A stretch of DNA of 38,791 nt. Source: Candidatus Acidiflorens stordalenmirensis. GTDB lineage: Bacteria; Acidobacteriota; Terriglobia; Terriglobales; Acidobacteriaceae. The translations under genes were made by a program, and so were the position numbers. Under the pieces are notes generated by a model. It searched no databases. It was not told where the DNA came from and saw nothing but the letters and a program-made list of their open reading frames with translations. Shown here in pieces: positions 34,850-38,389 of the stretch. Position 1 is the first letter of the stretch; each line of letters begins with the position of its first letter. Location of the stretch: assembly GCA_003139995.1 (NCBI GenBank), contig PLIC01000084.1, positions 1-38,791 on the forward strand. Reading direction: 5' to 3'.

Positions 34850-34999
34850 CAGAATCTGCGCAGGAAGTTCACAATCTCACGCTCCGCCCAATAACCGTCG
34901 TCATACCGATCTTCGTCATACCGATCATCGTGATGCTGATCGTCGTGATAACGACCATCGCTGCCAGTCCCCGCTCCAGCGGGCGATCTGACAGGTACC
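34849..34999 (-). pseudogene. Displaced C-terminus of the YheT-like hydrolase
   Basis: In the frame one base away from the hydrolase, the sequence reads on through an Asp/His/Tyr-rich stretch to 'GYWAEREIVNFLRRF' and a TGA that overlaps the next gene's ATG. That ending is what YheT-family hydrolases usually have (a tryptophan followed by a helix). Dropping one G from the G5 run at 34998-35002 (minus strand) joins the two frames as 'GGHCAFIGVPVRSP'. Confidence 0.75.
34899..34926. repeat. 15-bp tandem repeat in the hydrolase tail
   Basis: CGTCATACCGATC occurs at 34899-34911 and again at 34914-34926, with degenerate relatives up to about 34960. It encodes the DRYDE/DRYDD-type low-complexity stretch in the restored frame. 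Confidence 0.7.
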
Positions 35000-35926
35000 C
35001 CCGATAAACGCGCAGTGCCCGCCGTCGGCCGTCTCCACGAAGGTGATGTTCGGGTTCGACGAAATCTTCCGCCGCGTCTCCGCCGTGATGCGCACGAACG
35101 GATCATTCGCCGCGTACAAGACCAGCGCCGGCACCGCGATGCAATCGATTACGTGCGCCGCCGAAGCGCGATCATAGTAATCGTCCGCGCCCGCGAAGCC
35201 GCAATAGTAAGCCGTCACCTTGTCGTCAAACTCGCGCAGGCTCCGGATGCCGCGCAGGCGGCTCACGTCGAAGTGGCCGGGAAACAGCCGCGCCTTCTGA
35301 AGCATTCGGCGGCGCAGCGCCCACAAGAAATATTTTTCGTAAATCCGGTTCGCCGGTTCGTGCAGCGCATCCGCCGACGCCGCCAGATCGATCGCCGGAC
35401 AACACGCAGCGACGGCTCGAACCTGCGGCGGCGCTTGCGGTCCCCACTCCCCCGCCAACTTCAGCACGATGTTGCCGCCCATCGAGAATCCAACCAGCGC
35501 CAGGCGCGAAATGCCGTCGCGCGCGATGACCTGGCGCGCCACCGCCGCCACGTCATTCGACAACCCCGAGTGATAGAGCACCGGCGCGAGCGCGTCCGTG
35601 CCGCCACAGTTGCGCTGGTTGTAGCGGATCACGTTCATCCCCGCAGCCAGAGCCTTCTCGGTGACTCCTAGCATGTACTGCGAGTCGCTTGACCCTTCGA
35701 GCCCGTGCACAATAATAATGGTCAGTGCGCGCGCTCGATCCGTTTGCCAGTGGCAGTGACAAAGCACCTGGACGCCGGGCGCCACTTCAATCAGCCGCTC
35801 CTCGGGCGCAGGCAGATGAAAACGCCGCGGAATTAAAAAGCTGGCAACGGTTTGCACGTGTCCGCCGCGCAACCAGCGGCGTGGCGTGAAGGGGCGCGTC
35901 TCCTCGTGTGTTTGCGAAGTATCCAC
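34925..35926 (-). CDS. YheT-family alpha/beta hydrolase, frameshifted near the C-terminus
   Basis: 333 residues as read. The alpha/beta-hydrolase core is clear: oxyanion region 'IIIVHGLEGSSDSQYM', 'VIRYNQRNCGGTD', nucleophile elbow 'ALVGFSMGGNIVLKLAGEWG' (Ser in GFSMGG), the acid in 'LYAANDPF' and the catalytic histidine in 'DGGHCAFIGG'. This is the YheT/ABHD-type family; substrates are usually unknown esters. After 'AFIGG' the sequence becomes unlike the family ('TCQIARWSGDWQRWSLSRRS'), while the expected ending continues in another frame to 34849. So the gene carries one extra base, either a real mutation or a sequence error in a G run. All catalytic residues lie before the shift. Confidence 0.88.
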   Translation of the reverse strand: MDTSQTHEETRPFTPRRWLRGGHVQTVASFLIPRRFHLPAPEERLIEVAPGVQVLCHCHWQTDRARALTIIIVHGLEGSSDSQYMLGVTEKALAAGMNVIRYNQRNCGGTDALAPVLYHSGLSNDVAAVARQVIARDGISRLALVGFSMGGNIVLKLAGEWGPQAPPQVRAVAACCPAIDLAASADALHEPANRIYEKYFLWALRRRMLQKARLFPGHFDVSRLRGIRSLREFDDKVTAYYCGFAGADDYYDRASAAHVIDCIAVPALVLYAANDPFVRITAETRRKISSNPNITFVETADGGHCAFIGGTCQIARWSGDWQRWSLSRRSASR

Positions 35927-35975: not shown

Positions 35976-36224
35976 ATGCCCATCTTCGAGTACGTCTGCA
36001 AGGAATGCCAGCACGAGTTCGAGGCTCTGGTCTTCGGCAAACAAAAAGCGGAGTGCCCGAAGTGCCAGAGCAAGAAACTGGAGCCGCAGCTCTCCGTGTT
36101 TGCCGTGGCCGCAAAGAGCGGAGCGACGACGCAGCCGCCATTCCCATCGGGATCGGCGGGGCCCTGCGGGTCGTGCTCCGAGGCTGGCGGGCCGGGGGGC
36201 TGCCCGATGAAAGACTTCGACTAA
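35976..36224 (+). CDS. FmdB-type zinc-ribbon protein
   Basis: 82 residues. 'MPIFEYVCKECQHEFEALV' and 'AECPKCQSKKLEPQLSVFAV' give the CxxC-CxxC pattern and typical wording of the putative regulatory protein FmdB family. The tail is Gly/Ser-rich with extra cysteines ('GPCGSCSEAGGPGGCPM'), as is common in the family. GGAG eight bases before the ATG supports the start. The role is not established; family members are small proteins of uncertain regulatory function. It is divergent from the hydrolase gene. Confidence 0.9.
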   Translation: MPIFEYVCKECQHEFEALVFGKQKAECPKCQSKKLEPQLSVFAVAAKSGATTQPPFPSGSAGPCGSCSEAGGPGGCPMKDFD

Positions 36225-36246
36225 GTCCTTTATTTGCGATCAAGAA

Positions 36247-36262
36247 TGTTTCACGTGAAACA
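36247..36262. promoter_or_regulatory. parS: parS centromere-like site (ParB/Spo0J binding)
   Basis: TGTTTCACGTGAAACA is a perfect 16-base palindrome and matches the well-conserved bacterial parS consensus exactly. The palindrome extends to 22 bases (36244-36265). ParB loads here and organises the origin region for chromosome segregation. It lies in a 438-bp gap without genes (36225-36662). No parA or parB is in the window. Confidence 0.9.
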
Positions 36263-36392
36263 TTCGTGCGCTTTGTAGTAGCTATGGGCTATACCATAAC
36301 AACGATTTATTTACTCGACTATTTTCGTTTGCAGGCTGTGGAACAGAAGCAGACTTTCGATGCCCAGCCCCTAAAGGGGGCGTCTGATTTCC

Positions 36393-36450
36393 TGTAGAGA
36401 CGAGGCTTGCCGCGTCTCTGGAGACGACGGGGCAAGCCTCGTCTCTACAG
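36393..36450. repeat. Inverted pair of family-1 REP-like repeats
   Basis: TGTAGAGACGAGGCTTGCCG (from 36393, ending GCGTCTCTG) and its reverse-oriented partner (GGGGCAAGCCTCGTCTCTAC, to 36450) face each other. Together they could fold into one long hairpin. Paired, inverted REPs of this type are the REPIN arrangement. Confidence 0.75.
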
Positions 36451-36466
36451 CTAGAGGAACCCACGG

Positions 36467-36494
36467 TATGGCTGAAGCCATGTCCCTTCAAAGC
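36467..36494. repeat. Palindromic repeat, family 2
   Basis: ATGGCTGAAGCCATG followed by TCCCTTCAAAGC, matching the layout at 16172-16204. It lies in the same gap as parS. The rest of the gap up to 36640 shows nothing I can name. Confidence 0.6.
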
Positions 36495-36662
36495 TATTTC
36501 TTCAGAGCTATCCGGAAACAACTTCATCAAAGTTTCCCTAATGCAACGTAACTTCGGGAACTGTTTGGTGGGTAACCGATGTGACGTTTCGCTTTGGGGC
36601 GTTTCTGGTTATGATCCGCTTGAATCTTCGAGCAAAACTTCGGAGCGTAACTCGGAGCGGAA

Positions 36663-37006: not shown

Positions 37007-38389
37007 CTAACGTGGATTCACGTGGCCGGTCCCCACTTTTTCTTCGGCAAGGAATCTGGCAAAGACTTCATTGGATAAGAGACGGCCACGAGCGGTAAGG
37101 CGCAGAATCGACCCTTGCTGTTCGAGCAGACCTTCTTGCACGCATTGCCGGATCGCGGATTCCCAAAGGGCGACGGTCTCTTGGCTGAACTCTTGTTCGG
37201 GGGCGCGGCTGGCCTCAGCGGCTAAAGCCGCGGTTCCTTCTGCGGCGTTCGTGGCACGACTAAAGTCGTGCCCTTCCCAAAACCTGCTTTCGAGATCGAT
37301 ACCGCGATTGAGGCGCAGACGGAGGAAGAAACTTTCTTCGATTGCTGCCTGCGCGGAAATCAGCGTCACCGTATGCGGCACGCGATTCATGTACGCGTCG
37401 AGCGAGTCGGGCGTCGCGAAGCGGACGGCCTGGCAACGCTCGTCCTCATGATGATCGACGGCAAGCATCGAGTGCGCATCGACGCCGAAGCCGACGTAGG
37501 GCTGGCGCGTCCAATATTTCAAGTTATGGCGCGACTGGTTCTTATGCGAATCGCGAGGGCGCGATTCGTTATTTTGTGACTCGTTGTTTTGTAAATGTGG
37601 GACGGCGCGGGCAAAGTTGGATATTTCGTACTGCGCAAGGCCAGCGGCGGCCAGCATCTCACATGCCTGCTGATAGAAATCCGCGGTTGCGTCGTCGTCA
37701 GGGACAAAGTGGGCGTGGTAACGGGCGCCTCCGGCGATCAGTTCCCTGCCGAGACGAGAATCCTGGTCCACTTCGAGCATGTAAACGCTCGCGTGCGGAA
37801 CGCCTGTCGCAATCGTCTCCGACAGCGAGAAGGCCCAGCTTTCCTCGGTCTGGTGCGGCAGCCCGGCAATCAGATCGATATTAATGTTGGCGATGCCAGC
37901 CTCCCGCAGGCGAGCGATGTCTTTCAGCACAGTGGTACGTTTGTGCAACCGTCCCACGGACTGCGCTTCCCGGTCGACGAAGGATTGCACGCCCAGGCTC
38001 ACACGATTCACGCCGCATTGCAGCAAGGTTTCGATGAGGGCGGCAGTAAGCGTGCCCGGAGCGCATTCGACCGTGATCTCTGCATCGGGCGCAACTCGAA
38101 AATGAGCGCGGACGGCGGCGAAGATGCGCAGCAGCTGCGAGGTATCGAGGATCGACGGAGTTCCTCCGCCGAGATAGATGGAGTCGGCGGTGTCATCGTG
38201 TGTACATCCGAGTGCAGATCCGAGCGCGCAACCCAGCTTCGACGTTATCTGGCGCGAGTTAGCGATATCTTCGAGCAGGCGGGCAACATACTTTTCGCAA
38301 GCAGATTTCGAGAACACGTCGGAGGCGAAGTTGCAGTAGCTGCACTTGGTCGGGCAGAACGGGACGGAGATGTAGAGGCCGAGGGGCAT
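37007..38389 (-). CDS. hemW: HemW-like radical SAM heme chaperone with in-frame insertion
   Basis: 460 residues, long for the family (about 380-400). The radical SAM cluster motif is 'CPTKCSYCNF' near the N-terminus. 'DSIYLGGGTPSIL', 'ECAPGTL', 'GVNRVSLGVQSF', 'NINIDLIAGLPHQTEESW' and 'YEISNFA' are all typical of HemW, a heme-binding relative of oxygen-independent coproporphyrinogen oxidase. The C-terminal winged-helix region ('LRLTARGRLLSNEVFARFL') is intact. Two stretches look inserted: a polar N/S/R-rich segment before 'SRHNLKYW', and about 25 residues around 366-391 ('GHDFSRATNAAEGTAALAAE') encoded by palindromic repeats. Both keep the frame. The start fits the conserved 'LGLYISVPFC'; no ribosome site is visible. 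Confidence 0.92.
   Translation of the reverse strand: MPLGLYISVPFCPTKCSYCNFASDVFSKSACEKYVARLLEDIANSRQITSKLGCALGSALGCTHDDTADSIYLGGGTPSILDTSQLLRIFAAVRAHFRVAPDAEITVECAPGTLTAALIETLLQCGVNRVSLGVQSFVDREAQSVGRLHKRTTVLKDIARLREAGIANINIDLIAGLPHQTEESWAFSLSETIATGVPHASVYMLEVDQDSRLGRELIAGGARYHAHFVPDDDATADFYQQACEMLAAAGLAQYEISNFARAVPHLQNNESQNNESRPRDSHKNQSRHNLKYWTRQPYVGFGVDAHSMLAVDHHEDERCQAVRFATPDSLDAYMNRVPHTVTLISAQAAIEESFFLRLRLNRGIDLESRFWEGHDFSRATNAAEGTAALAAEASRAPEQEFSQETVALWESAIRQCVQEGLLEQQGSILRLTARGRLLSNEVFARFLAEEKVGTGHVNPR
37214..37291. repeat. Family-2 palindromic repeats inserted in the hemW coding region
   Basis: CAGCGGCTAAAGCCGCGG is followed, after a spacer, by GGCACGACTAAAGTCGTGCCC and TTCC. The first palindrome is nearly identical to the one at 38739-38761. 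The element lies within hemW and is translated. Confidence 0.75.

Follow-up and report, generated by a model that had tools for sequence, protein, structure and literature searches.

The palindrome between the FmdB and HemW genes

The window analysed here, the 38,791 nucleotides at bases 1-38791 of contig C258 (48,540 bp) of Candidatus Acidiflorens stordalenmirensis, carries a 16-bp palindrome of the parS type, the sequence on which ParB of the chromosomal partition system ParABS nucleates. The genome is a 5.49-Mb draft of 313 contigs and is 92.84% complete. We consider the palindrome most likely to be a genuine secondary parS for the chromosomal ParB, probably remote from the replication origin and one of a set of sites dispersed in this lineage. 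The features around it are the following.

34925-35926, minus strand: alpha/beta hydrolase gene (PF00561, 1.4e-20), which adjoins FmdB in relatives
35976-36224, plus strand: gene for an FmdB-family zinc-ribbon protein of 82 residues (PF09723, 8.6e-13; TIGR02605, 3.7e-14)
36225-36662, no strand: intergenic gap of 438 bp containing parS
36225-36270, plus strand: type A flank unit, GTCCTTTNTTT...parS...TAAGTGCG-like (flank score 23 of 30; next best window position 19)
36244-36265, no strand: perfect 22-bp palindrome GAATGTTTCACGTGAAACATTC enclosing the parS core
36247-36262, no strand: parS-type core TGTTTCACGTGAAACA, a perfect 16-bp palindrome and exact sequence match
36392-36450, no strand: inverted repeat with 25-nt arms (36392-36416 and 36426-36450, 96% complementary) and a 9-nt loop
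36663-36998, plus strand: gene for a small protein of 111 residues, PilZ-like by eye only, which adjoins hemW in relatives
37007-38389, minus strand: HemW, a radical SAM heme chaperone and our positional anchor gene (TIGR00539, 2.4e-68)

The initial annotation of this DNA had described an exact parS consensus match within a 22-base perfect palindrome, lying in a gene-free gap about 130 bp from an inverted repeat pair, and the sequence agrees on each count. The 16-mer at 36247-36262 is identical to the TGTTNCACGTGNAACA-type palindrome, which we take to be the parS consensus. It begins 22 nt past the stop codon of the FmdB-family gene, which ends at 36224, in a gap that extends to the next plausible gene, and it lies 745 bp from the end of the HemW gene; the inverted repeat starts 127 bp from the 22-bp palindrome. 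The TTCC form of parS and its half-sites are described in PMC7022226.

No other position in the window resembles the core even when three mismatches are allowed, a threshold at which shuffled windows gave a mean of 0.14 matches and 14 of 100 shuffles at least one. Base composition predicts 4e-6 exact matches per window and 5e-4 per 5.49 Mb, and a chance origin of the exact match was rejected on the former figure. Among perfect palindromes without a spacer, the one at 36244-36265 is also the only one in the window to reach 18 bp.

A scan of named genomes for HemW gave 80 loci, 13 of them with FmdB nearby. In two of these syntenic loci, L022 (bog_207) and L023 (fen_85), a parS-like site lies at the same 22 nt past the FmdB stop codon. 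The L022 site, TGTTCCACGTGGAACA, differs from that of the window at positions 5 and 12, and as these changes are symmetric, the palindrome was kept; the L023 site, TGTTCCACGTGAAATA, is not symmetric. A shared position with a symmetric change is the pattern looked for under selection for the palindrome, and it is seen fully in L022 and not fully in L023, while the other 11 loci carry no NNTTNCACGTGNAANN word at all. Neither orthologous site keeps the outer GAA/TTC of the 22-bp palindrome, so these outer 3+3 bp may be due to chance.

Copies of the site and the chromosomal position of the window

The initial annotation had suggested searching the genome for the 16-mer and had named the absence of parB as a point that would speak against its reading. 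The search returned three exact copies of TGTTTCACGTGAAACA and five more at one or two mismatches, while a control with the reversed pattern found nothing, again with up to two mismatches allowed. One exact copy, that of the window, stands alone on C258. The other two are on contig C304 at 61671 and 61739, both in the gap between rsmG and parA and upstream of parB. This parB is the only one found in the draft (TIGR00180, E ≤ 1e-5), and five genus members likewise have one each by the same model. The genome thus encodes a chromosomal ParA and a ParB with a helix-turn-helix, with sites identical to that of the window at the par locus. Near-matches include TGTTTCACGTGGAACA on C227, TGTTCCACGTGGAACA on C150 and TGTTTCCCGTGAAACA on C155, in addition to two weaker ones. 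Given these and the C304 pair, the par locus shares the word found in the window, and other copies are spread over several contigs.

The exact form TGTTTCACGTGAAACA is rare in the family, being found in 3 of 150 genomes, all from the window's genus, which was represented by five. The form TGTTCCACGTGGAACA is present in 124 of the 150, and of 30 parB neighbourhoods that were fetched 26 contain it; parB itself was detected in 136 of the 150 (E ≤ 1e-20). At least eight exact copies occur in 11 of the 150 genomes (range 8-33), counts that in part reflect clusters at the par locus. The 33 copies, of TGTTCCACGTGGAACA, are those of G086, a draft of 810 contigs in which dispersal is not shown. Each of the 24 genus genomes searched contains sites when up to one mismatch is allowed, from 2 to 24 per genome, against 0-2 with the reversed control.

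Complete genomes of the family were searched at up to one mismatch. In six of the seven, symmetric parS words occur only within about 3 kb of parB, and two of these genomes, G128 and G095, have one additional asymmetric one-mismatch word each. The seventh, G017 (3,686,523 bp), has 15 exact copies where composition predicts 8e-4. Seven adjoin parB. The other eight are separated from this cluster by 1.5, 2.7, 5.2, 5.2, 14.5, 16.2, 25.6 and 37.2% of the chromosome, and no fewer than two of them fall within coding sequence, namely mutL (L292) and an aminotransferase gene (L293). On contig C1 of G017, dnaA and parB are 413 kb apart, compared with 14-81 kb in the other six complete genomes. The GC skew of G017, sampled in 20 pieces of 20 kb, has its minimum at about 1.5-2.0 Mb and its maximum at about 3.2 Mb. 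Copies away from parB, on other contigs or hundreds of kb distant, were also found in G098 (3 of 10), G130 (5 of 14), G064 (5 of 8) and G034 (1 of 5), with none of 3 in G140. As several genera of the family have exact copies outside the parB neighbourhood, a lone parS is, judging from these genomes, no map marker there.

The initial annotation had read the site as placing the window near the origin, and this was not supported. In the draft, dnaA is on contig C203, separate from both the window and the par locus. In the seven single-contig genomes of the family, the distance between HemW and dnaA, as a fraction of the chromosome, is 0.294, 0.351, 0.381, 0.397, 0.397, 0.495 and 0.497; between HemW and parB it is 0.182-0.490. 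Location in the origin domain is usual for parS and is not part of its definition; the distance of HemW from dnaA in all seven relatives leans against such a location here, with the window's own genome a draft. Genes downstream on C258 accompany HemW in 20-kb pieces of these relatives, the ABC transporter in six of seven and LpxB and an M1-peptidase/TPR protein in four of seven. All three are also near HemW in the congener G028, where the neighbours on the parS side (the 111-residue protein, FmdB and the hydrolase) are retained as well. In G028, dnaA and parB share one contig and HemW is 398 kb inside another; the GC skew of 20 sampled 20-kb pieces of this genome is too weak to place HemW. Because HemW is far from dnaA in the complete relatives, the window is probably origin-distal. 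What stands of the original interpretation is the parS-type site itself, with parB present, identical sites at the par locus and a position common to two relatives; what is not supported is the proximity to the origin.

ParB, the distal sites and their flanks

Sites at the par locus and distal sites were compared in 11 of the 24 genus genomes, the window's own included, for which a full site list, an exact distal site and a par cluster adjoining parA were at hand. Only sites exact to TGTTYCACGTGRAACA were counted, and these were entered by hand. The 13 genomes left out are G157-G164, G093 and G147, whose site lists are incomplete, G154 and G156, in which the par cluster was not identified, and G165. 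The last has no exact distal site, and its one distal near-match, TGTTTCACGTGAGACA, is of another type than its TTCC par locus. Across the 11 genomes, the fraction of half-sites with T at the par locus and the fraction at distal sites rise together (Spearman 0.93; permutation 0.001, a value that is not a true probability because the genomes share ancestry). In the six TTCC-type genomes, none of 80 distal half-sites has T. The five TTTC-type genomes have T in 34 of 42, the weakest being G000 (3 of 6) and G166 (1 of 2). At two distal positions judged orthologous from their flanking DNA (L183/L211 and L188/L198), G168 has TTTC/GAAA where G152 has TTCC/GGAA.

In an alignment of ParB from the two groups (5 and 6 genomes), columns 270, 290, 303 and 345, numbered as in the window's own ParB (L099:7400-8611, minus strand), split the groups perfectly. 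Only column 270 falls within the SRE-Q/T-VSN stretch, which aligns with SRPHIAN of Spo0J and which we equate with the recognition helix of PMC7383237. A search with a short segment from the ParB region, its frame unverified, found no match and carries no weight here. This helix was surveyed more widely in 64 loci, 18 of them chosen mainly because their genomes are without the exact TTCC form. Searching them with ParB gave 60 matches and 59 readable helices from 58 genomes; G151 and G166, both of TTTC type, yielded no readable ParB. Residue 270 is Gln in five of the 59, all five with TGTTTCACGTGAAACA at the par locus. In the other 54 it is Ser or Thr (53) or Glu (1), and a symmetric TTTC/GAAA site was seen at none of these 54 loci, of which 12 are without any site of the forms searched; the Ser genome G035 has two mixed sites. 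G102, represented by two loci, has TGTTACACGTGTAACA as its site and DRGTVGN as its ParB helix.

Given the covariation of par-locus and distal alleles, the helix residue and the swaps at orthologous positions, the chromosomal ParB is likely the simplest reader of both classes of site. The distal sites of this lineage appear to have altered their sequence in parallel with ParB, and the pairing of ParB residue 270 with parS positions 5 and 12 provides a concrete, testable hypothesis of specificity. A tree of ParA, ParB and RsmG left unresolved whether the Gln/TTTC state arose once or repeatedly and in which order the changes came.

Many distal sites of the genus also have characteristic flanks. 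The type A unit, GTCCTTTGTTT-parS-TAAGTGCG-like and with its reference flank taken from the C227 copy, is found at 36225-36270 of the window, at 5623-5668 of L103 and in L017, L162, L163 and L164, with neighbours that are not always the same. On C227 of the window's own genome, type A flanks recur behind a ClpB-like gene. The position 3' of ClpB carries parS in four genomes (G000, G147, G150 and G168), with different flanks in G168. When loci were clustered, the parB and ClpB clusters were joined by weak links (L015 to L163/L165) and were read as two from the strong edges. Among 56 other distal sites, from the L156-L215 congener set and the own genome and with several sites at one locus counted separately, 49 have GTAC within 60 bp; the corresponding figures are 2 of 21 for sites at the par locus and 2 of 22 for distal sites in other genera. 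Alternating purine-pyrimidine runs of at least 12 within 100 bp were found at 30 of the 56, at none of the 21 and at one of the 22; among 822 background positions, 22 had such a run. The word GTAC[AG]TAC is 287 times denser in the flanks of distal sites than in the rest of the loci. Together with parS, these GTAC-rich purine-pyrimidine flanks form a composite element.

Explanations for the site and relation to known systems

Very probably ParB does dock at the window site, where it would load as dimers. By analogy with other bacteria, loading may take the form of CTP-gated clamps sliding onto the adjacent DNA; from the behaviour of the family ParB would be expected to nucleate on parS, spread and recruit SMC. 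The site could accordingly recruit SMC locally or anchor its region, and a secondary point of ParB/SMC loading or anchoring is the role we favour.

Several observations weigh against a secondary, origin-distal parS read by ParB. The ParB binding proposed at the window site draws on sequence comparison, and the map position on gene order shared with complete relatives from other genera, the window's own genome being a 313-contig draft. In 20-kb pieces of the seven complete genomes, no gene of the window was found on the parS side of HemW (E ≤ 1e-15), and the contigs of G028 only bound the distance of HemW from dnaA and parB at 471 kb or more. The site is, from this comparison, neither ancient nor indispensable, because it was not found in 11 of the 13 loci with FmdB near HemW. 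The other distal near-matches of the own genome vary in form (TTTC/GGAA, TTCC/GGAA and a core variant), and the par-locus sites of G093, G147 and G166 are in part mixed too. Three ParB columns besides 270 separate the same groups, and the association of Gln with TTTC comprises five genomes only in a weakly supported phylogeny (bootstraps 15-52). G017, the sole complete genome with dispersed parS, has a second protein that matches TIGR00180, and this protein could read the distal sites there.

A classical parS close to the origin, with the contig in the origin domain and the site part of the main centromere region, would agree with the six of seven complete genomes that keep symmetric parS only beside parB. 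Such a reading is unlikely, as neither parB nor dnaA shares a contig with the window site, HemW in all seven complete relatives is separated from parB by 18-49% and from dnaA by 29-50% of the chromosome, and the ABC transporter of C258 stands beside HemW in six of them. Another possibility, though one we doubt, is that parS was copied by a short dispersed DNA element, marked by the type A or GTAC-rich flanks, and was kept neutrally or selfishly; this would be compatible with a secondary parS as the origin of its copies. Type A flanks at two own loci and at other loci of relatives suggest such an element, as does the enrichment of GTAC near distal sites of the genus relative to par-locus sites and to distal sites of other genera. 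Distal copies nevertheless carry the allele of the par locus, and the position 3' of ClpB keeps parS in four genomes, one with quite different flanks. Because the sites were found by pattern, decayed copies are under-represented, so that neither the distal alleles nor ClpB are a clean test of copying by an element.

The location directly behind a stop codon, with a second own copy behind the ClpB-like gene, would also fit an operator for another regulator or a signal at the FmdB 3' end that merely resembles parS. It is improbable that this accounts for the site, considering its identity to the par-locus sites, the covariation of its allele with ParB across the genus and the absence by eye of a T-run after the palindrome (no terminator scan was made); moreover, Noc models score below their cut-off on the only ParB found. 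A Noc binding site in particular was rejected, the window site having parS bases and the sole TIGR00180 protein scoring 201.9 bits on TIGR04285 where the cut-off is 315. We regard a chance palindrome or a non-functional relic as the most improbable of these explanations. The 11 syntenic FmdB loci in which no site was found are consistent with a relic, as are the G017 distal sites within the coding sequences for MutL and the aminotransferase. Against this stand the minute number of exact matches expected in the window and the position common to two relatives, one with a symmetric change. The secondary parS read by the chromosomal ParB, probably distal to the origin, is therefore the reading we retain.

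More tentatively, several genera of the family may possess a network of parS sites, read by ParB, that reaches along the arms towards the terminus. Within the genus of the window, its sites would lie in composite elements (GTAC-rich tracts or type A) and would have been switched along with a one-residue change in the ParB helix, giving a natural multi-centre organisation. The odds of such dispersed centromeres are lowered because G017 has a second ParB-like match and because Caulobacter tolerates an extra parS near the terminus.

The chromosomal parS of ParABS in Bacillus subtilis, Caulobacter, Corynebacterium and others is a 16-bp palindrome of the same type, and as in those systems ParA, ParB and par-locus copies are present here. 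Elsewhere parS is usually located near the origin, in the origin domain (PMC7022226, PMC7333895), whereas the window copy is apparently origin-distal and away from parAB. A constraint on the position of parS is generally assumed, since ParB loads SMC and determines where segregation begins. Widely scattered parS are described as confined to a few lineages including Bacilli (PMC5815017, PMC7022226, PMC7333895, PMC5098823, PMC8357415, PMC7383237 and PMC8494293 jointly), and B. subtilis has eight parS over about 0.75 Mb and a weak site at +1058 kb (PMC8357415). The Bacilli resemble the present lineage in having several dispersed single sites besides a preferred origin cluster. Unlike in Bacilli, exact copies in the complete relative G017 lie up to 37% of the chromosome from the par cluster, one draft relative has 33 exact copies, and distal copies of the genus often have recurrent flanks.

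In Pseudomonas, parS2/3 is TGTTCCACGTGGAACA (PMC5098823, PMC7022226), which is the TTCC/GGAA form that 26 of the 30 fetched parB loci of this family have near parB. Correct segregation in P. aeruginosa requires parS within about 650 kb around oriC (PMC5098823), a limit with which an origin-distal copy contrasts, and its ParB additionally binds hundreds of half-sites (the joint sources above, PMC5815017 to PMC8494293). Caulobacter suffers lowered fitness from an engineered mid-arm parS and tolerates a copy near the terminus (PMC5815017), whereas dispersed parS would be natural here. In B. subtilis, shifted parS positions disturb folding and affect growth little (PMC8357415).

Noc sites are similar to the present ones in being dispersed and read by a ParB-family protein. 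We presume the TATTTCCCGGGAAATA-type sequence to be the Noc binding site (NBS). These sites are scattered round the B. subtilis chromosome (PMC4331003) and depart from parS at positions 1 and 6 (PMC7383237); unlike an NBS, the window site has parS bases, and the Noc model falls under its cut-off on the own ParB.

In the literature searched, mainly open-access, we recognised no description of parS dispersal in Acidobacteriota. Scattered parS are already known from Bacilli. A lineage that naturally keeps exact parS far from its par locus, seemingly rewritten along with ParB, makes the generality of the positional constraint directly testable, and allows the effect of distal ParB loading to be asked directly.

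Two neighbours of the site remain to be described. The 111-residue protein between parS and HemW has no family match in Pfam or NCBIfam, and no solved relative was found. The inverted repeat at 36392-36450 contains GTCTCTAC, an octamer that occurs five times in the window, twice as the arms themselves, where 0.4 are expected. An arm of the repeat recurs once in the fetched locus L272 of the congener G028, and the inverted repeat is perhaps a dispersed one.
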